Of a stretch of DNA of 47,947 nucleotides, positions 803 through 13,540 are shown piece after piece; the stretch's first letter is position 1, and each line of letters begins with the position of its first letter. The position numbers were made by a program, and so were the translations under genes. The DNA comes from Sebaldella sp. S0638 (lineage in GTDB: Bacteria > Fusobacteriota > Fusobacteriia > Fusobacteriales > Leptotrichiaceae), in NCBI RefSeq assembly GCF_024158605.1, contig NZ_JAMZGM010000024.1, positions 1 through 47,947 on the forward strand, written 5' to 3'. The notes beneath the pieces are model-generated. The model did no database searches and was not told where the DNA came from. It saw only the letters and a list, made by a program, of their open reading frames with translations.

Positions 803-3800
803 TTAAAATACTGCTTTTAATATTATACTTGTTCTGTATTCATCCTGGCTGTTATCACCTGCTCCATACTCTCCTGTAAGGAATATTCCGTATCTGTCCT
901 TCACTTCTACTCCCACCGATGCCCTAGTTCTAAAAACGCCGCCCTCTTCTTCCGGTTTAGGCAAGTCATAATATTGCATCTTTACTGCACTTAATTTTGC
1001 CCTTTCTGTCACATTTGTATCCCCTAATTCATACTCATATGCTAAATCTAACTTTCCGCTTAGTTTCCACTGTTCTTTTTTCCCTAAAGGACTTTCTGCT
1101 TTTAATTCTACACCGACTCTCGGCTTTATACTCCATGCATCATTCCCTTCTATTTCCAGACCTTCTTTTCCTTCTTCTTCAAATCCCGGTCTTGTTATAT
1201 ACATGAGTCTAAAAGCTTCATACGGAGTTATCCACTTATCTTTTCCTAATGCTATTTCTCTGCCTGCTATATTATCAAGACTAAAACTGTAAGTTTCAAA
1301 TGTCCCGTTCATCTCTGATCTTTGAGATTTTCCCCAGTCTATATTTCTATCTATATTGTGAAAACTTATTCTTCCGGTTAAATCATTTCGCAAAATCCAA
1401 TTGTCTGCTTCATATCTGTTATGTCCCCCTATTTGTATTGTATCTACCCATTCTTCACTTTCATTGCTATCATCAAACTCGAATCCGGTATGTAAATATC
1501 CTAAAGAATACCCGATTTTATGTTTATAGCTCTTCTCTGTTTCTTTCAAGGCTAAAACTCCTGCCGTAGTATAATCATAACCTACAACTCCGGCTTTATT
1601 TTCTCCTGTAGCTCCCTTACCTGCAATTATATTAATTTTTACACTTTCATCTGTGTTATTTTTCGAACTTTGAAGTAAGTCTAATGATTCATCAAATGTT
1701 TTAGCAATGTCGTACTCTCTCTGATTTATATTAGCATAAACATTTCCTGCGATATTTCCGATAATTTTATTTAACTCGCTGATATTTTCTATCATATCTA
1801 ATTTATCATAAAATAGTAAAGATTCGCCTTGTGCATCCTCGTAATTTTCATCTAAGCTTTTAGCAAAGCTTTCCCACCAGCTTCCCTTCGCTATATCAGA
1901 ATATAGAATTCTTTCCATCCAAATATCTAAATTACCGTCAGAATTAACATTTGGAATAGCACTCCAAAATATCCCTTTACTCACTATATCCGAACCCCCG
2001 CTGTTTAGACCCCCATTTTGTGTGGTTGGCTTAAATACCTCTTCTAATTTATATACATTTACATTTGTTCCTTGAGAAAAATCAGGTGTTACTTCTACAT
2101 TTCTCAAAACAAATTCTGGTGCTATAAATTTTACAGCGTCTGATACCAAAAATTTCCCGTTTATATCTTCCGGAGCATAATCAGACGGCAGAGGATTTGC
2201 TGCTCTTACTGTGCCGGGGTCGACTTTTATCTGAACAACTGCATTTTCCGGAACTAAAAACTTTTCATTTACTTTTATTACTCCGGCATTGATTATACTG
2301 GGCAAATCATATTTAGACCCTGAATTCAAATAATCTACTGGTGCCAAAACTGATGAATCTGTCACTATTAATTGTCCTCCGTTACTTAAATCAGCATTTA
2401 TTATTCCTGAATTTACTAACGTAGAACCATTTTTCATTAATATCCCTATTCCGTTTTTACCAGTTACAGTAATTAAGCCTTTATTTTCTATTGCTGTATT
2501 CTCATCAGCATATATGCCTACACTATTCTCTCCTGTTAAATTAATTATTCCTGCAGAATCATTTGTGATTTTAGCATTATTTACACCGGCTATCCCTACA
2601 GAGTTATTTCCAGTCAGGACTATGTTTCCTCTATTAATAAATTCATTCCCCAGTCCTGTTTCTATAAAAACTCCTACAGTTTGTTCACCGCCAGAACTTA
2701 TTACACCGTTATTCTCTATTTTGTCCATTGGTTTATATGAATAAATTCCTATTCCCTTTACTCCGGTTTCTATAGTTCCTGAATTTATCATATTTAAATT
2801 ATTATAGCCGTATATTCCAGCTGCAAAATTATTAACTTCTGAATTATTAGGATCAGTATAAGTATTTCCTGCTCTTATAGTTCCCTGATTATCGACTCTG
2901 CTCTCACCGGCATAAATTCCCAAACTAACATCTCCTGTTGATATAATACCTGTGTTAATAATAACGGAATTATTGTCACCATACATACCTATTATTGAGT
3001 TATCTGAGTTACTTGCTGTTCCTGAATTAGAAATTTTATTACCGTTTATAATAGTAGAATTATAAGCATACATACCCACAGAACTCATGCTTACATTTAT
3101 ATCTGCATTATTTACTAGTGTACTTCCATTTCTTCCTACATATCCAAAACTTCCGACTGTTGAAGTGTTATTACCTACATTTATGATTCCCGCTGCTGTA
3201 ATAGTTGCTCCATCTGTCCCGTAAAACGCTGCCGAATTATCTCCTGCTGCATTCACCACACTGTTATTTAATTGTATCTGTCCGCCTTTTCCATAAAATC
3301 CTATTCCGTTTTCTTCTATATCAGTAACTCCATTTATTTGATTTACCAAAATTTGATTCCCGTAAATACCCACCGAATCTTTTCCGACAAACAGGTTTCC
3401 TGTATTATTAATAACCGAATTTTTCTCTCCGTATACTCCGACACTGCTGTTAGAAACACTTATCATTCCGCTGTTATTTATTTCTAACTGCCCTGTCCCG
3501 TCAGTAGTTCCATAAATTCCTACTGAAGATTTTCCGGCCACGCTCACATTTCCAAAATTTTCCATTTGTCCTGTCACAGTACCATCTGCATCTACAGCTA
3601 ATATCCCAATAGATTTTTCACCTGATACCATTGTTTCTCCAAGGTTTAAAACTCTTCCGTCTTCTTGGATAATACCAGTTGCTTTATTTCCCAGAACATT
3701 TACTTTATTATCAAAAGTTATCTGTTTCAAAGAATTAAAATCAGTCTTTAATACAGAACCAGTCTGTTCATTTTCGATATTTAAAGTAATTCCTGAAATA

Positions 3801-6800
3801 GTCATATTATCTAATGTTAAATTTTTTCCGTATATTCCTATTGACCCGGTTCCTTCCCTTATATAAATTGTCTTATTGGAAAAGACATCTCCCTCTGATG
3901 TATAAATTCCAAATTGATTCATCTTATTTAGATCATAAATACCGCCGGAAGTATCTGTTAAAGAAATTCCTGCTACAGAAGAAATCTCTCTTTTTATATA
4001 ATTATAAACAGAATTTGCCCCTGTTTGTATATTTCCGGAAATAATTCTTACTTCAGAATCTTCAGTGTCTGCCACTGCTCCTATTCCGATAGAATTATCT
4101 CCGGTACTTATATTACCGCCATTCAAAGTAACTAAACTATCTGTCCCGAATATTCCGAGAGAATAATTTATTCCTGTAATCCCACTGCCCGCACTGATAT
4201 TCCCAGAGTTTGAAATATCTGTTCTTTTACCAAATATACCAAATGTACCGTATCCTGATAAATTGATATTTCCTGTATTATCAATCATCGACCTGTTATT
4301 TGGATCATGCCCTATAGAATATACTCCCACAGCATTATCAGCTGTAGATTCTATTATCCCGGCATTCTTTATCTTATTTTCTTTTCCTATTCCCAAAACT
4401 CCTGCTGCACCGGATATATTATCAGCATAAATTCCTACACCCTGATTTCCTACTAAAATTTTACCATTATTCTCTGCTGCGGAACCTAAAGTAACATACT
4501 CACCTACTCCAAAATCACCGCTGTTTATTATACCTGTTACATCATTTATAATATTTGAATAATATCCAAAAATTCCTATTCCTTCATCACCTAAATTTAT
4601 TTTATTTCTATTAATTCCAACTCCGAATTTTTCAGTGTAAATTCCTGTAGATTGAACTGCTTTTGTTCCTGAAAAAATTTTAGACTCTATTTCTCCATCA
4701 TTTATAACCGCAGAATTTCTGGCAAATATTCCTATACTGCTATTTGGAACTGCTATTTTCGTTCCTGAGTTATTTATATATGCGGAATCTTCTACCCTTA
4801 ATATTATCATTCCATTATCTGGTGTTATTATTTCTGTTGTTGGCGAAACATTAATAATTCCGTTATTTTGTATTGCAAATACCACACCTTTTCCTGTCAT
4901 TTCAATTGTCCCGTTATTTATATTTAGCGCTGCACCATCTACTCTCACTGCAATTGTTTCGTCACCGTTTACCTTTAGATAAGTATTATTTAAATCTAAA
5001 ATATTATCATTATTCAAAGATTTTGCATATATCCCTACTGCCGGGTATATTCCTCCGAATTTTCCAATCTCTATATCAGGAGCTGCCAAACCTGATCCAT
5101 TATAAATCATCTTGCCAGAACTCAAAGTATCCACATAATAAATCCCTACTGCTCCGTCTCCGCCATATAAACCGGCAGACAAACTTTTCGTTCCAATTAA
5201 ATTTTGAATGCTTAAAACTATCGGCTGGATATTTGAAAGAGTCTTATCTCCGATTTTTATATTTTTTATCGAACTATCTATATTTGAATCTCCTGTCATT
5301 AAAACACCTGACAGATCATCTCCGAACACCATGTTTTTTGACCCTAGAGAACTTTTTAAACTTCCATTTTCTAAAAAATACCCGTTACTCCCCGCTCCTA
5401 AATAAAACCTGCTCTCATCTGCCGAAGCATTATCAAATAACCCTGATTTTACATAGATCCCTACACTATTTCCTCCGGTAGTTATACTGTCTATACTATC
5501 AATATAACTGGAATTCTCAGTATAAAGCCCTATGCTGTTTATTCCTGACTCTAGTTTCCCTAATTTAATAGTTCTTAAAGTATCTGCACTATTCAGATAA
5601 ACCGCTGCCCCATAATCTCCAACCCTGATAATTCCGCCTGTTGAGTTATCTATATTAGAATTTTTTATATAGACACCTAATGAACCGCTGTTTGAACCAC
5701 CAGACTGTAAAATACTGACTCCGCTGTTCAAACCGTTAAATCCTAAAAGACTAATTCCATTTACTCCTATAATAATATCTGCCTTTTCGCCTATTGATGC
5801 CAGACCTAAACTTTTCGCCCCGCTTAATTGTGTTATCTCATTTCCTGTTGTTCCTATTCTCAGAGTAGTTTTTACGGTATTATCAGCACTTCCATTTAAG
5901 TATACTCCTATCCCGCCTTCTCCTAACTCTATATTACTGTTAAATTCCGCTTCTCCCTGATTTACATATAGTCCGATATTTTTAGAAACTGAGGATACTT
6001 TTATACTTCCAGTTCCCGAAACTTTCAAATTCTCATTTTTTGAATATACTCCAAAACTTCTGTTCAGCGAGTTATCTGTATTATCAATAATTCCATTATT
6101 TACAATTTCTAAATTATCCGTGATATTATAAATACTGGAATTTAGAACTATTCCAAATCCACCGTCCATTATGTTTATTTTATTATTATTCTCAAGTTTT
6201 TTTAGACCTGTATTTCCATTGTCTAGTATATATATACCCGTTCCTTGATCAGAATTTATTATCCCTGCATTATTTACTACAGGTGCTATACTGCTAACAG
6301 GTGAGTTATCTGTAACTTCATATAAAATACCTATTCCTTTTTCTCCAGATAGATTTATAATATTGCCGGATGAAAAATTTATACTGTCCCAGCCGGAATA
6401 AATACCAACACTTTGACCTCTTAGCGTAAAAATTGTATTTAATAAATTTAGTGTATTTGAAGCAGCAGAGTCTAAATAAATTCCATAATCATACTTATCA
6501 TCTGTACTCACACTTTCTATACTTATATTTCCTCCGGTATTTAATATGCTGTTATTTTTCACGTATATTCCTATATCATTTCCATTTGTATTTAATTTGA
6601 GACTGCTGTTTACCCCTAAATTTACTATCCCTGCTTTACTGTAAACAGCCATATTGCTAAATGAATCCGTGCTGTTTAAGGCTGTTGAATTTAATTCTAT
6701 ACTCCCGTCATTCTGGAATTTAGAATTAATATTTACAATACCTATATTTTGTGCTGAAATATCAGTTAAATTTAAAATCACTTGCCCGGTATTCTTAACT

Positions 6801-8410
6801 GTGTTACTTGTAAGTCCGCCGTCAACTCCATACATTCCTATATTTTTACTGTTTGTTGAGTTGATTCTTATTACTCCATTATTAGTAATTGCTGAAGGAC
6901 CATCTATATTAGCAGCTACCATACCTGCGGAATTGAAAACATTTCCATTTAAATCAATTATACCAGTATTTGAATTTATGCTAGTTCCGTTATCTACCCG
7001 TATCCCATTGTTGTTTGTACCGCTTATTATTATACTCCCGTCATTTATAAAAGGCTTATTAGCAATACTTTGGTATATCCCCGTAGAATTATTTCCGCTT
7101 ATAGTTATTTTCCCGCCATTTAACACTGTATTATCCGGAAATTTTGCTAAGCCGTTCACTACTATGCCGTAATCATCAGATCCATATAAGTTTATTTCCC
7201 CGTTTTGGATGAATTTATTAGTAAAAATTATACTAGGATCTATATTTGTTGCTGTTTGGACAACTGTATTCGAGAAATCTCCATTATTTAAATAAAATCC
7301 GTAACTTCCATTACCGTATAAATTTATTTTCGCATTAGATTTGTTTACTATTCCAATTGTAGCTGTGGCATTAAGCACTTCAAATCCAATACTTGTATCA
7401 CCCATCAAAGTTATAGAACCCCAATTTTCTGCATGAAGTAAATTTCTTGATCTGATAAAGTCTACACCAATTACATTATAACTTGTCGGATCAGAAATTA
7501 TATTTCCTTGATTAACATAAGATATATCTCCGCGTCCGCTGTAACCATGCTCAATCTCCAGTGCTTTAGCATTATTAGTATTTACTGTAAGATTCCCGGT
7601 TGTAGTCAATGATATTACCTGATTTGTATTCCCGGCAAGCGAACCTGCTTCTCCTCTGTGACTTTCCATTGCTATTATACGTGACCCTGACCGATTCGTT
7701 CCTATATCTGATGTTATGACATTAGTTAAACTTCCGCTTCCGCCAGTTGGATTTGTGTAAGTCGAACCTTTTGTACCTATTAACTGCAGCAAGGCTGTGT
7801 GTGTATCTGTACTTGACAAAAACGTCCCCTGAGCAAAATTATCAATATTCGTATATAAATTTTGAGCACTGGAACCAGCATTATATCCATTGCCATTTTG
7901 TTCTAAATTCAGTGCTGGTATGACTATTCTTTCAAATGTTTTAGGAACAATTTCTTGATTTAATAATACAATATTTATATCTCTATCTACATTAATATCA
8001 CTTATTTGTATTGAAGTAATTCCTTGAATTGCTATATCAGGGAGATCAGTCAGATTAGGAACATTTATATTTATTGGTTTCTTGGTAATACTAATATCTG
8101 ATATTTCTGGAATCAAAGGTATTGCTAAATCTAGATTTTTATCATTAAAGGCAATGAATCTTTTTCTTATTCTTGGCAACAGCTCAAAAGTTTTTACTTC
8201 TGAAAGAGCCATATCTTTGATTTCAGAGTTCGATTTTGATTTTCCGCTTTTATTATTGTAGAAAGCAGTAAAAAACACCTGCCATTCTAAGTTATCAGCA
8301 TCATACAAGTCATAAATACTATTTCTATCCTCTGTTTCTTTTATTAATGTTTGTTTTTCACTTAACACAATGCTGCCTAATAGAGCCATTAATGCTATAA
8401 TTTTTTTCAT
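803..8410 (-). CDS. giant type V autotransporter (2,535 aa)
   Basis: A surface-exposed or secreted type Va autotransporter. The N-terminus (MKKIIALMALLGSIVL) is a short signal sequence. Residues about 20-270 lack the repeats and may be a family-specific N-terminal region. Residues about 270-2100 are a repetitive passenger rich in N, G, S, I and V, with dozens of short units of the type GxNSVGIYG or xIxNSGxI, as expected of a long beta-helix. The last about 275 residues are an autotransporter barrel (PF03797-like) that alternates amphipathic strands and ends in Val-Phe, a classic outer-membrane C-terminus. There is one long open frame with no internal stop, AAGGAG 6 bases before the ATG, and its own terminator. 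By analogy with other fusobacterial autotransporters a role in adhesion or host contact is likely, but the ligand is unknown. Confidence 0.93.
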   Translation of the reverse strand: MKKIIALMALLGSIVLSEKQTLIKETEDRNSIYDLYDADNLEWQVFFTAFYNNKSGKSKSNSEIKDMALSEVKTFELLPRIRKRFIAFNDKNLDLAIPLIPEISDISITKKPININVPNLTDLPDIAIQGITSIQISDINVDRDINIVLLNQEIVPKTFERIVIPALNLEQNGNGYNAGSSAQNLYTNIDNFAQGTFLSSTDTHTALLQLIGTKGSTYTNPTGGSGSLTNVITSDIGTNRSGSRIIAMESHRGEAGSLAGNTNQVISLTTTGNLTVNTNNAKALEIEHGYSGRGDISYVNQGNIISDPTSYNVIGVDFIRSRNLLHAENWGSITLMGDTSIGFEVLNATATIGIVNKSNAKINLYGNGSYGFYLNNGDFSNTVVQTATNIDPSIIFTNKFIQNGEINLYGSDDYGIVVNGLAKFPDNTVLNGGKITISGNNSTGIYQSIANKPFINDGSIIISGTNNNGIRVDNGTSINSNTGIIDLNGNVFNSAGMVAANIDGPSAITNNGVIRINSTNSKNIGMYGVDGGLTSNTVKNTGQVILNLTDISAQNIGIVNINSKFQNDGSIELNSTALNSTDSFSNMAVYSKAGIVNLGVNSSLKLNTNGNDIGIYVKNNSILNTGGNISIESVSTDDKYDYGIYLDSAASNTLNLLNTIFTLRGQSVGIYSGWDSINFSSGNIINLSGEKGIGILYEVTDNSPVSSIAPVVNNAGIINSDQGTGIYILDNGNTGLKKLENNNKINIMDGGFGIVLNSSIYNITDNLEIVNNGIIDNTDNSLNRSFGVYSKNENLKVSGTGSIKVSSVSKNIGLYVNQGEAEFNSNIELGEGGIGVYLNGSADNTVKTTLRIGTTGNEITQLSGAKSLGLASIGEKADIIIGVNGISLLGFNGLNSGVSILQSGGSNSGSLGVYIKNSNIDNSTGGIIRVGDYGAAVYLNSADTLRTIKLGKLESGINSIGLYTENSSYIDSIDSITTGGNSVGIYVKSGLFDNASADESRFYLGAGSNGYFLENGSLKSSLGSKNMVFGDDLSGVLMTGDSNIDSSIKNIKIGDKTLSNIQPIVLSIQNLIGTKSLSAGLYGGDGAVGIYYVDTLSSGKMIYNGSGLAAPDIEIGKFGGIYPAVGIYAKSLNNDNILDLNNTYLKVNGDETIAVRVDGAALNINNGTIEMTGKGVVFAIQNNGIINVSPTTEIITPDNGMIILRVEDSAYINNSGTKIAVPNSSIGIFARNSAVINDGEIESKIFSGTKAVQSTGIYTEKFGVGINRNKINLGDEGIGIFGYYSNIINDVTGIINSGDFGVGEYVTLGSAAENNGKILVGNQGVGIYADNISGAAGVLGIGKENKIKNAGIIESTADNAVGVYSIGHDPNNRSMIDNTGNINLSGYGTFGIFGKRTDISNSGNISAGSGITGINYSLGIFGTDSLVTLNGGNISTGDNSIGIGAVADTEDSEVRIISGNIQTGANSVYNYIKREISSVAGISLTDTSGGIYDLNKMNQFGIYTSEGDVFSNKTIYIREGTGSIGIYGKNLTLDNMTISGITLNIENEQTGSVLKTDFNSLKQITFDNKVNVLGNKATGIIQEDGRVLNLGETMVSGEKSIGILAVDADGTVTGQMENFGNVSVAGKSSVGIYGTTDGTGQLEINNSGMISVSNSSVGVYGEKNSVINNTGNLFVGKDSVGIYGNQILVNQINGVTDIEENGIGFYGKGGQIQLNNSVVNAAGDNSAAFYGTDGATITAAGIINVGNNTSTVGSFGYVGRNGSTLVNNADINVSMSSVGMYAYNSTIINGNKISNSGTASNSDNSIIGMYGDNNSVIINTGIISTGDVSLGIYAGESRVDNQGTIRAGNTYTDPNNSEVNNFAAGIYGYNNLNMINSGTIETGVKGIGIYSYKPMDKIENNGVISSGGEQTVGVFIETGLGNEFINRGNIVLTGNNSVGIAGVNNAKITNDSAGIINLTGENSVGIYADENTAIENKGLITVTGKNGIGILMKNGSTLVNSGIINADLSNGGQLIVTDSSVLAPVDYLNSGSKYDLPSIINAGVIKVNEKFLVPENAVVQIKVDPGTVRAANPLPSDYAPEDINGKFLVSDAVKFIAPEFVLRNVEVTPDFSQGTNVNVYKLEEVFKPTTQNGGLNSGGSDIVSKGIFWSAIPNVNSDGNLDIWMERILYSDIAKGSWWESFAKSLDENYEDAQGESLLFYDKLDMIENISELNKIIGNIAGNVYANINQREYDIAKTFDESLDLLQSSKNNTDESVKINIIAGKGATGENKAGVVGYDYTTAGVLALKETEKSYKHKIGYSLGYLHTGFEFDDSNESEEWVDTIQIGGHNRYEADNWILRNDLTGRISFHNIDRNIDWGKSQRSEMNGTFETYSFSLDNIAGREIALGKDKWITPYEAFRLMYITRPGFEEEGKEGLEIEGNDAWSIKPRVGVELKAESPLGKKEQWKLSGKLDLAYEYELGDTNVTERAKLSAVKMQYYDLPKPEEEGGVFRTRASVGVEVKDRYGIFLTGEYGAGDNSQDEYRTSIILKAVF

Positions 8411-9218: not shown

Positions 9219-9305
9219 TGGTGCGAAAGACGGGACTTGAACCCGTACAGCCTTATCGGCCACAAGGCCCTCAACCTTGCGTGTCTACCATTTCACCACT
9301 TTCGC
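9219..9305 (-). tRNA. tRNA-Leu(GAG)
   Basis: An 87-base class II tRNA with acceptor stem GCGAAAG/CTTTCGC, a D-arm, a 5-bp anticodon stem CAAGG/CCTTG, and loop TTGAGGG giving anticodon GAG (9270-9272), which reads CUU/CUC. There is a long variable arm and the T-arm GGGTTCAAGTCCC. Discriminator A is followed by a genome-encoded CCA. TTGAAA and TATAAA boxes upstream on the minus strand are a plausible promoter. Confidence 0.95.
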
Positions 9306-9522: not shown

Positions 9523-9551
9523 TTGACTTATCTTTTAAAAAGTTATATATT
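9523..9551 (+). promoter_or_regulatory. promoter of the Met-rich leader and metNIQ
   Basis: TTGACT (9523-9528), a 17-bp spacer, then TATATT (9546-9551), a near-consensus sigma-70 promoter. Transcription would begin near 9558, only about 25 bases before the small ORF. It is the only good promoter before metN. Confidence 0.7.
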
Positions 9552-9582
9552 TAATCATATAATTTAATGAGGAGGAAATCAA

Positions 9583-9735
9583 ATGTCTGCAATATTCTTT
9601 AATTTTATTTCAGTAAACACAATGTATATGATGTTAATGTGCATGTCTATGATGATGTACACTTTTTTACATACTGAAATAAAACAGAGAATAAAAAAAG
9701 ATATTTTGAATTACTTATTAATAGAATTAGACTAA
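9583..9735 (+). CDS. Met-rich 50-aa small protein, candidate leader peptide of metNIQ
   Basis: GAGGAGG lies 7 bases before the ATG, one of the best ribosome binding sites in the window. The product has 50 residues. Nine are Met, eight of them in the 12-residue stretch at positions 14-25 (MYMMLMCMSMMM). The first half is hydrophobic and could span a membrane; the second half is charged (residues about 32-41 are EIKQRIKKDI). Downstream are an intrinsic terminator (9772-9806) and then metN, with no room for another promoter. The layout matches amino-acid leader peptides (his, trp, phe type), where translation of a run of the cognate codon sets transcription read-through. The alternative is a small membrane protein that is merely co-transcribed. 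No homologue is known to me. Confidence 0.7.
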   Translation: MSAIFFNFISVNTMYMMLMCMSMMMYTFLHTEIKQRIKKDILNYLLIELD

Positions 9736-9771
9736 TTATTACAGTTTAAAATTATTTAATAATAAATAACG

Positions 9772-9806
9772 AAAAATACTTTGGAATTTTCTGAAGTATT
9801 TTTTTT
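9772..9806 (+). terminator. intrinsic terminator inside the metNIQ leader (attenuator candidate)
   Basis: AAAAATACTT and AAGTATTTTT pair over 10 bp. The intervening 12 bases can extend the stem (two G-U pairs, then G-C and A-T) to a tetraloop. The 3' arm runs into eight T (9799-9806). It lies between the Met-rich ORF and the metN RBS (9820-9825). The stem is AT-rich, so termination may be partial, as suits an attenuator. Confidence 0.7.
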
Positions 9807-9832
9807 GTTGAATTACAGAAAGGAGTTTGCAA

Positions 9833-10846
9833 ATGATAAAAATTGAAAATATTAATAAATCATTTGATCATAAAAATGTACTTGCTAACGTCAGCCTTGA
9901 AATACCAAAAGGGAGTATCTATGGTATTATCGGCTACAGCGGCGCAGGAAAAAGCACCCTTGTGCGTATTATCAATGCATTGGAAAAACCGGATTCAGGA
10001 AAAGTTTTTATTGATAATACCGACTTGTATTCCCTTGATGAAAAAACTGTCCGAGATGAAAAGAAAAAAATTGGGATGATTTTTCAGCACTTTTATCTTT
10101 TGAACAGTAAAACTGTTTTTGATAATGTAGCAATTGCGCTGAAAATAAATAAAGCAGGAAAAAATGAAACTGAAAGCAGAGTTATGGAAATACTAAAGTT
10201 CGTAGGACTGGAAAATTACAGGGATAATTATCCTGAGCAGCTTTCAGGGGGACAAAAGCAGAGAATCGGAATAGCAAGAGCATTGGTCAACAATCCGAAA
10301 ATTCTTTTGTGTGATGAAGCTACAAGCGCTCTTGACCCTGAAACAACCAAGCAGATTCTCGAACTTTTGCAGAAAGTAAACAGGGAACTTGGAGTAACTA
10401 TAGTACTGATAACACACCAGATGGAAGTGGTAAAAAATATATGCGACAGGGTTGCTGTTCTGGAAAATGGTTATATTATTGAAGAAAATGATGTTTTTAA
10501 TATTTTTGCCTTCCCAAAAGAAGCTACAACGCAAAAATTCGTAGAAAGTATACTTCATCAGGACATACCTGATTCTGCTTACAGGCATCTTATAGACGGG
10601 AGGCTTTATAAGCTGACATTCTCAAAGGGGCATGTTGATGAGCCGGTCTTATCAAACATTACTGCTGAAACCGGTGTTAATTTCAGTATTTTGCAGGGAG
10701 TAGTCACAGAAATACAGGAACATTTTTTCGGACAGCTTGTAGTAAAGCTTTCATCTGCAGGTGAACAGACAGACATTGCTTTGGAAAAACTGAAAACCTA
10801 CGGCGTGGAGGTACAGGAAATCGGAAAAGGAGGAAATACAATATGA
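9833..10846 (+). CDS. metN: methionine ABC transporter ATP-binding protein MetN
   Basis: This 337-residue ATPase powers D/L-methionine uptake through MetI. An ABC domain fills residues about 1-245, with Walker A GYSGAGKST, Q-loop, signature LSGGQKQR, Walker B LLCDEA and the H-loop. A C-terminal NIL (ACT-like) domain at about 260-337 in this family binds methionine and inhibits transport (trans-inhibition). ATG 9833 is chosen because AAGGAG ends 7 bases upstream; the in-frame TTG at 9827 is too close to it. The stop overlaps metI by 4 bases. Transcription must come through the leader terminator, so expression is probably set by attenuation. Confidence 0.96.
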   Translation: MIKIENINKSFDHKNVLANVSLEIPKGSIYGIIGYSGAGKSTLVRIINALEKPDSGKVFIDNTDLYSLDEKTVRDEKKKIGMIFQHFYLLNSKTVFDNVAIALKINKAGKNETESRVMEILKFVGLENYRDNYPEQLSGGQKQRIGIARALVNNPKILLCDEATSALDPETTKQILELLQKVNRELGVTIVLITHQMEVVKNICDRVAVLENGYIIEENDVFNIFAFPKEATTQKFVESILHQDIPDSAYRHLIDGRLYKLTFSKGHVDEPVLSNITAETGVNFSILQGVVTEIQEHFFGQLVVKLSSAGEQTDIALEKLKTYGVEVQEIGKGGNTI

Positions 10847-11493
10847 ATGTTTCATTTGAACAAATAATTAACGCTACATGGATAACTGTTTACATATCAG
10901 TATTATCATTTATTCTCGGTACATTGATTGCTTTTTTTCTGGGATTTACGTTATATTTCACCAGAAAAGGAGGAATATATGAAAATAGAAAATTATATGT
11001 AACTCTGGATATAATAATTAATTTTATCAGATCACTGCCGTTTGTGGTTTTACTGCTTTTACTTATTCCTGTAACAAGACTTCTAGTAGGGAGTGCTATA
11101 GGCCCCAATGCAGTAATTGTATCACTGACATTTTTTGCAGCACCGTATATTGCAAGGCTTGTAGAAAGTTCTCTTTTGGAGATAGATCATGGAATTCTGG
11201 AAGTAGCAGATTCGCTGGGGGCAAATACACAGGAACTCATCACCCACTTTCTGCTTCCTGAGGCTGCCTCATCTTTAATATTTAATTTGTCCATTGCCTT
11301 TGTAAGTATAATAGGTGCAACAGCAGTGGCAGGAACTATAGGCGGCGGAGGGCTGGGTGACCTTGCCATTTCATTCGGGTATAACAGATATGATTATATT
11401 ACCCTTGTTACAGCTGTGGGAATAATAGTAATATTGGTGCAACTGGCACAGTTTTTAGGAAAGTATTTATCTAATAAAGCAAAATATTTATAA
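10843..11493 (+). CDS. metI: methionine ABC transporter permease MetI
   Basis: A 216-residue inner-membrane permease with about five membrane segments. A BPD_transp_1 domain is clear, including the EAA-type coupling loop (EVADSLGANTQELITHFLLP) that docks onto MetN. The start codon overlaps the metN stop (ATGA), implying translational coupling. It is followed by metQ after 18 bases. Length and order are typical of metNIQ operons. Confidence 0.95.
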   Translation: MNVSFEQIINATWITVYISVLSFILGTLIAFFLGFTLYFTRKGGIYENRKLYVTLDIIINFIRSLPFVVLLLLLIPVTRLLVGSAIGPNAVIVSLTFFAAPYIARLVESSLLEIDHGILEVADSLGANTQELITHFLLPEAASSLIFNLSIAFVSIIGATAVAGTIGGGGLGDLAISFGYNRYDYITLVTAVGIIVILVQLAQFLGKYLSNKAKYL

Positions 11494-11511: not shown

Positions 11512-12330
11512 ATGAAAAAAAGAAATTTATTACATTTGATCGCATTGCTGATTCTGGCATTTTTTATTACGGGATGCGGATCAGGTTCAGGTAAAAAGTA
11601 CAAAGTTGGTGTAAATGGTTCTAATTCCAAACAATGGGAATATATAAAGGAAGAAGCTGCTAAAAAAGGGATAAATCTTGAAATAGTTTATTTCTCTGAC
11701 TATGTTCAGCCAAACAGGGCTCTTGTGGATAAGGATGTGGATATTAATGCCTTCCAGACTCTCTCATTCCTAAATACATTTAACGAGACTAACAAACAGG
11801 ACATTGTTCCTATTGGCACTACGATACTTGCTCCTATGGGAATTTATTCAAAGAAACTAAAGTCCCTTGACGAACTTCCGGAAAAAGCGAAAGTAACTAT
11901 ACCTAATGATCCTTCTAATCAGGGAAGAGCATTAAAACTTCTGGAAAAAGCCGGTTTAATAAAACTGAAAGACAGCGGCGGAAAAATCATAAGCAACAAT
12001 GATATTACAGAAAATCCAAAACAGCTGGAAATAATACCTATGGCTGCGAATCAGCTTCCCCAGACTCTGAATGATACTGAAATATCAGTTATTAATAACG
12101 GAGTAGCAGTAGATGCCGGTTTCTCACTTAGTCAGGCTATTTTCAAAGAAGATAAACTGGCAAAGGACTATATAAATGTCATTGCAGCGAGACAGGATAA
12201 TAAAAATGATGAAAATCTTCTGGAAATAGTAAAGTTATATCAAACTGAAACTGTGAAAAAAATTATAGAAGATGATACAAAAGGAAATTCTGTTCCTACA
12301 TTTATACCATTATCAGAAATAGGATTTTAG
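11512..12330 (+). CDS. metQ: methionine-binding lipoprotein MetQ (NlpA family)
   Basis: A 272-residue substrate-binding lipoprotein anchored outside the inner membrane. It has a signal peptide with lipobox ITGC (lipidated Cys22), then an NlpA/MetQ domain that begins with the typical KVGVNGSNSKQWEYIKEEA. GGAGG precedes the ATG by 9 bases. It is third in the operon. NlpA proteins bind L-Met, D-Met or Met-containing dipeptides. Context (MetN with a NIL domain, Met-rich leader) favours methionine. The neighbouring amidohydrolase hints that N-acyl or dipeptide forms may also be used. Confidence 0.93.
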   Translation: MKKRNLLHLIALLILAFFITGCGSGSGKKYKVGVNGSNSKQWEYIKEEAAKKGINLEIVYFSDYVQPNRALVDKDVDINAFQTLSFLNTFNETNKQDIVPIGTTILAPMGIYSKKLKSLDELPEKAKVTIPNDPSNQGRALKLLEKAGLIKLKDSGGKIISNNDITENPKQLEIIPMAANQLPQTLNDTEISVINNGVAVDAGFSLSQAIFKEDKLAKDYINVIAARQDNKNDENLLEIVKLYQTETVKKIIEDDTKGNSVPTFIPLSEIGF

Positions 12331-12346: not shown

Positions 12347-13540
12347 ATGGCAAAAACAGAAAAAGATTTAATAATAGACTTTATAGATGAGAATAATAAA
12401 TCCCTTATAGAAACCGCAGAATTTATTCATAATAATCCCGAACTGGGAAATCATGAGTTTGTATCCAGCAAGGCTCTTGCTGATCTTCTTGAAAATCAGG
12501 GTTTTACAGTAACATATAATATCGCAGGACATGAAACAGGTTTTATCGCTAAAAAAACTTCGGCTAAATCCGGTCCGAAAATTGCTTTTCTTGCGGAATA
12601 TGATGCCTTACCTGAGATAGGCCACGGATGCGGGCATAATCTTATTGGAACTGCAAGTGCAGGAGCCGCTGCGGCAATAGGAAATATTATAGATGATCTG
12701 GGTGGAGAAGTTATAGTTTTCGGCAGTCCTGCTGAAGAAGGCGGTGATAACGGCAGTGCTAAAGCAAGTTATGTGAATAACAGTCTGTTTAATGACGTAG
12801 ATGCTGCACTTATGTTTCATCCTGCCAACAAAAATTCTGTTACACAAAAAACACAGACTGTAGAGCCTGTAGATATAGAATTCTTTGGAAAAACTGCACA
12901 TGCCGCGGGGAATCCTGAAAAAGGCATAAATGCCCTGCATGCGCTCATACATTTTTATAATATTTTACACACATATCAGCTGGGAAAATTCAAGAATCTT
13001 AATATACACGGCGTTATAACTGACGGCGGCAAAGCTCCCAATGTAATACCTGATTATGCCAAAGCAAGATTTTATATACGCGGCGCGACTTCCAAAGAAA
13101 GTCAGGAAGCCGTAAATATTATAGAAAACATACTAAAAGGCATTGATACATCTTTTGGTACTACATCAAAACTTACATATTTTCAAAACAGAGTGGATCA
13201 TTTTATACTTACTCCTGAATTTGATAAATTATTTCAAAAAATTTATGGAGAATGTACAGGAAATACAATAGATACCGGACAGACAAAACCCGGCGGTTCC
13301 ACTGATGCTGCCAATGTAAGCCATGTCATACCGGTAATACACCCGTATCTCGCAATTGGTGATTCTTCACTAACAGGACATACAATTGAATTTACCAATG
13401 CAGCATGTTCTGAAAAAGGTTTTGAGACTCTAATTCTGGCTGCAAAGCTGCTAAGCCTCACGGCTCTGGAACTTTACAAGGATTCTGAATTACTTCTGAA
13501 TATCAAAAACGACTGGAATAACAGCATTAGTTCACAATAA
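12347..13540 (+). CDS. M20 family amidohydrolase/peptidase
   Basis: A 397-residue zinc-dependent hydrolase of the M20D type, close to AbgB/PM20D2-like proteins. The metal-binding stretch HGCGHN (residues 93-98), the following PAEEGG motif, and a central dimerisation domain (about 180-290) are visible. There is no signal peptide, so it is cytoplasmic. It follows metQ by 16 bases with its own RBS (AGAGGAAG) and ends at a terminator, so it is the last gene of the metNIQ operon. Inference: it frees methionine or another amino acid from N-acyl or dipeptide forms taken up by MetNIQ. The family has many substrates, so the exact one is unknown. Confidence 0.85.
   Translation: MAKTEKDLIIDFIDENNKSLIETAEFIHNNPELGNHEFVSSKALADLLENQGFTVTYNIAGHETGFIAKKTSAKSGPKIAFLAEYDALPEIGHGCGHNLIGTASAGAAAAIGNIIDDLGGEVIVFGSPAEEGGDNGSAKASYVNNSLFNDVDAALMFHPANKNSVTQKTQTVEPVDIEFFGKTAHAAGNPEKGINALHALIHFYNILHTYQLGKFKNLNIHGVITDGGKAPNVIPDYAKARFYIRGATSKESQEAVNIIENILKGIDTSFGTTSKLTYFQNRVDHFILTPEFDKLFQKIYGECTGNTIDTGQTKPGGSTDAANVSHVIPVIHPYLAIGDSSLTGHTIEFTNAACSEKGFETLILAAKLLSLTALELYKDSELLLNIKNDWNNSISSQ

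Follow-up and report, generated by a model that had tools for sequence, protein, structure and literature searches.

The methionine transporter operon metNIQ of Sebaldella sp. S0638 is preceded by a small open reading frame (ORF) crowded with methionine codons, and then by a candidate terminator. The question raised by this arrangement is whether methionine import is controlled here by translation of a leader peptide. The stretch of DNA analyzed, referred to below as the window, comprises 47,947 nucleotides, and all positions are given in its numbering unless another contig is named. In ribosome-mediated attenuators of the his, thr, and trp type, a translated leader contains a run of codons for the cognate amino acid, and a terminator lies before the first gene. 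Methionine genes are controlled by the S-box and the Met T-box, in which RNA structure senses SAM or uncharged tRNA directly. To our knowledge, the residues usually listed as sensed by leader peptides do not include methionine, perhaps since methionine starvation also affects initiation. The original prediction for this locus, made from the sequence, was nevertheless a Met leader-peptide attenuator. The analysis described here indicates that the region before metNIQ is likely to be a ribosome-mediated transcription attenuator for methionine import.

The promoter, the ribosome binding site, the 50-codon ORF, and the 8 ATG codons in 12 were all found as originally described. ATG codons are located at positions 9583, 9622, 9628, 9631, 9637, 9643, 9649, 9652, and 9655, which places 8 methionines in codons 14–25. 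The leader ORF has no match in Pfam (E up to 1) or NCBIfam (E up to 0.001). Upstream of the promoter, on the opposite strand, there is a tRNA gene (9222–9305, minus strand), and a very long minus strand ORF of 2535 residues occupies 803–8410. The latter contains repeated short glycine-rich motifs, and by eye its C-terminal region resembles an autotransporter adhesin. For the three transporter genes, MetN, MetI, and MetQ are the best-scoring names, with scores under the NCBIfam curated cut-offs. The amidohydrolase that follows metQ, which we take to be a member of the M20 family, may release methionine or a related substrate.

The candidate terminator hairpin (about 9772–9803) contains 12–14 pairs with a folding energy of −9.6 to −11.2 kcal/mol, and a run of 8 T residues covers 9799–9806. 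The T-run ends 26 bases before the metN start codon at 9833, and 36 bases separate the ORF stop from the hairpin; both distances agree with the original prediction. What favors a terminator is that the element hardly varies among three genomes and has the 8-T tract, as the stem itself is weak and AT-rich. A consensus terminator scan returned 0 terminators, and it missed this hairpin because it needs three G-C pairs, of which the stem has two. The promoter scan gave no plus strand match within 9804–9832, the next ones beginning within metN, in line with the claim that no promoter follows the terminator.

Three further genomes of the genus, G024, G025, and G026, were compared with the window. 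In G026 (Sebaldella termitidis) and in the more diverged G024, the leader ORF lies directly upstream of a close metN, with a protein identity over most of the ORF of 90 and 68%, respectively. G025 (86% complete) gave no match to the leader ORF at E 1 and none to metN at E 1e-60, so that the comparison consists of three loci only, two of them close. The Met run holds 8 methionines in 12 codons at all three loci, despite two 3-base gaps within the run of G024. It recurs at the same position before metN together with the terminator in this alignment, a comparison that the original prediction had proposed for related Leptotrichiaceae. The promoter, read by eye, is also TTGACT-17-TATATT in G026 and is TTTACT-17-TATACT in G024. 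The sequence is almost unchanged in three blocks: the first part of the ORF, containing an arm that we call S1; positions 9677–9699, within a second arm, S2; and the terminator. The most variable stretch of the leader is situated between S2 and the terminator, and the C terminus of the leader ORF is frameshifted in G024. The amidohydrolase directly follows metQ in G024 too (72% identical). G026 and G024 likewise have a tRNA match on the minus strand upstream of metN. The window's genome contains two other MetN-like genes, with two counterparts in each of G026 and G024; the upstream regions of all these genes showed no Met leader. The features of the locus are listed in Table 1.

Table 1. Positions of the leader elements and operon genes in the window
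Feature	Positions	Strand	Basis
Sigma-70-type promoter, TTGACT-17-TATATT	9523–9551	+	Read from sequence; promoter scan
Ribosome binding site of leader ORF, GAGGAGG	9569–9575	+	Sequence; AGGAG kept in 3/3 genomes
Met-rich leader ORF, 50 codons, stop TAA	9583–9735	+	ORF list; sequence
S1 arm, before Met run	9593–9615	+	Folding; 21 pairs possible with S2
Met run, 8 ATG in 12 codons, presumed sensor	9622–9657	+	Sequence; kept in G026 and G024
S2 arm, after Met run, within ORF	9672–9707	+	Folding; 9677–9699 identical in 3 genomes
S2 as candidate antiterminator	9677–9707 with terminator (23 pairs); 9672–9693 with S1	+	Folding; duplex search
Candidate intrinsic terminator, hairpin and T-run	9772–9806	+	Sequence; folding; 1 hairpin difference among 3 genomes
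metN, ABC ATPase with NIL domain	9833–10846	+	NIL domain above Pfam cut-off
metI, permease	10843–11493	+	Best match, below curated cut-off
metQ, substrate-binding lipoprotein	11512–12330	+	Best match, below curated cut-off
Amidohydrolase (TIGR01891)	12347–13540	+	Profile match; likely same operon

No antiterminator had been seen by eye in the original prediction. Folding and a duplex search gave a candidate within the ORF, the pairing of S2 with the terminator, which is only modestly better than chance. Across the Met run, the predicted S1:S2 duplex has an energy of −19.5 kcal/mol in the window, −19.5 in G026, and −12.9 in G024, which loses 5 of the 21 pairs. The best duplex between the ORF start and the RNA after the run was matched by 0, 1–2, and 30–46 of 1000 shuffles in the window, G026, and G024, respectively. 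When the RNA after the run was paired with the terminator, the best duplex was formed by S2 in all three genomes (−13.5, −13.5, and −10.6, with 23, 23, and 22 pairs), and it was matched by 20, 23, and 129 of 1000 shuffles in the same order. This pairing covers both arms and the loop of the terminator, and it survives the frameshift in G024. Upstream pairing of the terminator region as a whole was equaled in 8, 7, and 3 of 200 shuffles. Among the three genomes, there is no two-sided compensatory change in S1, S2, or the terminator.

Folding for mutually exclusive structures, proposed as a check in the original prediction, did yield the two alternatives S1:S2 and S2:terminator; at equilibrium with the upstream RNA present, however, the terminator is the outcome. 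When S1 is present, S1:S2 dominates and the terminator forms. When S1 is omitted and the transcript ends at CTG or CTGAAG, the probability of S2:terminator is 0.95–0.98 in the window and G026 and 0.81–0.97 in G024 over five Met positions. It is weak before CTG (0.00–0.34) and falls again at CTGAAGTAT (0.02–0.91). For the complete leader with the upstream RNA kept, equilibrium folding gives a terminator probability of 0.999 in all three genomes at all single-ribosome positions tested. With the upstream RNA omitted, the values at the Met positions are 0.19–0.97 in the window and G026 and 0.88–0.995 in G024. A single ribosome on the first Met codon leaves S1:S2 at 0.73–0.83 and S2:terminator at 0.00–0.08. 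Adding a queued ribosome raises S2:terminator to 0.71–0.96, and only 0.00–0.03 remains after the 3′ arm of the terminator is complete, so the switch would have to act kinetically. In these models, the pairing results fit stalled and queued ribosomes that mask S1, and they do not fit a single stalled ribosome if the RNA behind it can pair with the RNA ahead of it.

The mechanism that we propose is as follows. Transcription would start near 9558, and the Met-rich ORF would then be translated. With ample charged elongator Met-tRNA, the ribosome would run through the leader, S1 and S2 would pair, and the terminator would end transcription ahead of metN. If charged Met-tRNA runs short, ribosomes would stall at the Met run, with others queuing behind them, and S1 would be covered. 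This would release S2 for pairing with the terminator sequence as it emerges, and metNIQ would be read. We regard it as likely that a Met leader attenuator of some kind operates at this locus. The exact S1/S2/terminator switch, as modeled, is put forward more tentatively and at somewhat less than an even chance. The Met run could instead control metNIQ by another RNA path, through hairpins in the spacer (9736–9770), Rho, or effects of the ribosome on polymerase pausing. Equilibrium folding, which lends no support to a single-ribosome S1/S2 switch, speaks for such a path, whereas conservation in the leader is lowest in the spacer between S2 and the terminator, with S1, S2, and the terminator kept, and we consider this route unlikely.

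A clearer version of Met leader attenuation is present in other genera of the family. A metN search in 33 family genomes matched 30, and the region upstream of the best locus of each was read. Ten metN loci (L006, L012, L016, L019, L020, L021, L030, L031, L032, and L062), spread over nine genomes and four other genera (g2, g8, g10, and g11), carry a short Met leader followed by a five-segment attenuator of classical design. The leader peptides are 11–16 residues long, for example MKYTTTFMMMHMYT, MKKFAKNMMMDM, and MKFAITLMMHM, compared with 50 codons in Sebaldella, an ORF that the original prediction had called longer than usual leaders. The segments A (AGCTTGTA), B (GGTACAAGCT), C (TGTGCC), D (CAGGCAC), and E (GCCTG and a T-run) permit the pairings A:B, B:C, C:D, and D:E, and in all ten loci the stop codon falls on segment A or only a few bases away from it. 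In the alignment of the ten loci, 91.4% of cells pair for A:B with C:D and 100% for B:C with D:E. No covariation beyond that of shuffles was detected in this element because the segments hardly vary.

The folding of the classical element depends on the ribosome position. For a transcript that stops after D and lacks the upstream RNA, placing a ribosome at the first Met codon gives a C:D probability of at least 0.98 in 8 of 10 loci (not L020 and L021). With a ribosome at the stop codon of the same truncated transcript, B:C exceeds 0.5 in 8 of 10 (not L006 and L019). Once the terminator is complete, the antiterminator C:D exceeds 0.5 at some Met position in two loci only (L019 and L031). A covariance model of the ten loci (R1), searched with stricter filters and 39 candidates scored per genome, found exactly those ten, all immediately before metN, in 9 of the 98 genomes of the phylum. 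It matched none of the four genomes of the window's genus at E 0.01, and the element itself matched no Rfam family.

The Sebaldella leader shares with the classical Met attenuator the family, the kind of operon, the run of Met codons, and a terminator, in Sebaldella a candidate, just before metN. The classical form differs by its short leader, by its five segments after the run, and by a different MetN lineage. A tree of 30 MetN rows from the family and 6 outsiders, which carries a long-branch warning and leaves out the second copy of G029 (L062), assigns three different positions to the Sebaldella MetN, to an eight-member classical group, and to the G029:C322 copy (L006). By eye, the start of the L062 MetN resembles that of the Streptobacillus-type MetN. 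The classical element therefore probably serves two MetN lineages. G029 carries it before two metN genes, at C322:3945–4042 (L006, L078) and C73:37331–37431 (L062, L070), which are seemingly of different lineages, and this suggests that the element has moved between paralogues. Because its MetN belongs to a separate lineage, the Sebaldella leader probably arose on its own. A possible history, at somewhat less than an even chance, is that Met attenuation of metNIQ arose at least twice in the family: once as a classical element that also reached a second, unrelated metN in one genome, and once as a Sebaldella design with its arms inside the ORF, in which queued ribosomes would mask the upstream arm.

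The conservation of the leader ORF could also be that of a real small membrane protein, made together with the transporter, with the terminator setting only a fixed lower level of metNIQ. The protein identity to G026 and G024 over most of the ORF is consistent with this, as are the hydrophobic Met-rich segment and the basic KIKQRIKK tail seen by eye and the weakness of the RNA switch in folding. The tail is, however, encoded by the S2 codons, all eight of which are unchanged between the window and G024. The chance of this is 0.006 as calculated from the per-residue codon conservation in four downstream genes (nucleotide identity 73.7%), for a stretch that was picked post hoc; identical runs of at least 23 bases between the two genomes also occur three times in those four genes. 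The frameshifted C terminus in G024 argues against a conserved protein as well, as does the lack of a family match. Outside the genus, the 33 family genomes gave no match better than E 0.03, and in nine of them metN is instead preceded by a Met leader attenuator. A small membrane protein is thus an improbable explanation. The Met run is kept as other residues and the C terminus change, and clear Met attenuators exist in other genera, so the best reading is a Met attenuator, and the original prediction is supported.

The Met run could further be a low-complexity accident next to a constitutive partial terminator. Among 51,741 stop-free windows of 12 codons in the six frames of the 48-kb window, 10 contain at least 5 methionines, and all 10 fall inside the leader ORF. 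As a background, we used 80 metN loci of other phyla, the best 80 of at least 586, with no member of the family among them. The test was for an ORF of 8–70 codons with at least 4 methionines in 8 codons within 500 bases upstream of metN, and it was passed by 1 of the 80 background loci versus 10 of the 13 leaders described here (3 from Sebaldella and 10 from other genera). The single background scorer has a tail of GGM repeats, presumably the end of GroEL, i.e. a false match. With a threshold of 3 methionines in 8, the counts are 8 of 80 versus 13 of 13. The rarity of the run, its retention in three genomes, and the separate Met leader system in other genera make an accident very improbable. 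In the same genome, the Met-run pattern has 6 matches, the leader included, versus 3 for the reversed pattern, and the other candidates were rejected: their ORFs have 4–7 codons, apart from L067, which has 25 codons and lies out of frame inside a 219-codon ORF. A match to the leader at G000:C33 (L002), also in this genome, proved on reading to be an AT-rich chance match.

A SAM riboswitch, a Met T-box, or another described RNA would be the usual control of such genes, and a SAM riboswitch is present elsewhere in the window's genome, before what we take to be the S-adenosylmethionine synthetase gene; the leader itself gave no Rfam match at gathering score, its sole match up to E 1 being to a snoRNA family (E 0.16, below its cut-off), so a described RNA can practically be dismissed. 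In the family, the SAM riboswitch occurs in 22 of 33 genomes, in none of the 9 with the classical element versus 22 of the 24 others. The remaining two are G023 (82% complete) and G025 (86% complete). A T-box-like RNA below the Rfam cut-off was observed at G000:C32:5926–6095 (L160) in the window's genome, upstream of a presumably asparagine synthetase-like gene, and matches to the T-box below the cut-off occur in G024 and G026 as well.

Compared with the his/thr/trp type, the Sebaldella leader has the same cognate codon run, candidate terminator, cognate operon, and candidate alternative pairings, and its translation is predicted. It differs in that methionine is the cognate residue, in the 50-codon ORF, and in that both arms seemingly lie inside the ORF and flank the run. 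The stop codon at 9733 is 25 bases past the end of S2 (9707), so a ribosome at the stop codon would not mask the antiterminator arm, unlike in the five-segment his/thr subtype. The S-box and the Met T-box would do the same physiological job as the Sebaldella leader, and neither matches there.

Attenuators are discussed in PMC1262725 and PMC2965389. The former reports that no RNA structure is conserved for the methionine operons of Actinobacteria, and the latter mentions a T-box preceding a gene for a methionine transporter of Lactobacillus sakei. PMC8079986 proposes a leader peptide, metL, of 29 residues before metNIQ in Streptomyces lividans, which resembles the Sebaldella leader as a methionine leader peptide for the same operon. 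Its authors term termination unclear, with no typical Rho-independent terminator, and by our count the printed peptide has Met at the start codon and at two other positions only. Among the literature matches listed, which largely exclude subscription papers, a Met leader peptide is proposed only in S. lividans and none for Fusobacteriota.

Met attenuators that are complementary to the SAM riboswitch in their distribution would show bacteria using charged Met-tRNA as the signal in place of SAM, and the Sebaldella form would extend the known layouts of attenuators by one with its arms inside the leader gene. The Met leader attenuators of the family provide ready-made test constructs. Outside the phylum, short ORFs with Met and Cys codons, such as MKNDNQNTNYYNSNMMCCATMRWYELAYI, were observed before a metN-like gene in Flavobacterium (L136, L139, L132, and L144). 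They are followed by a hairpin and T-run (AAAGCCTTTCA...GAAAGGCTTTTT) and are no more than about 320 bases ahead of that gene. L144 has lost the Met pair and keeps CC. Judged by their sequence, these loci are a possible Cys/Met leader attenuator.
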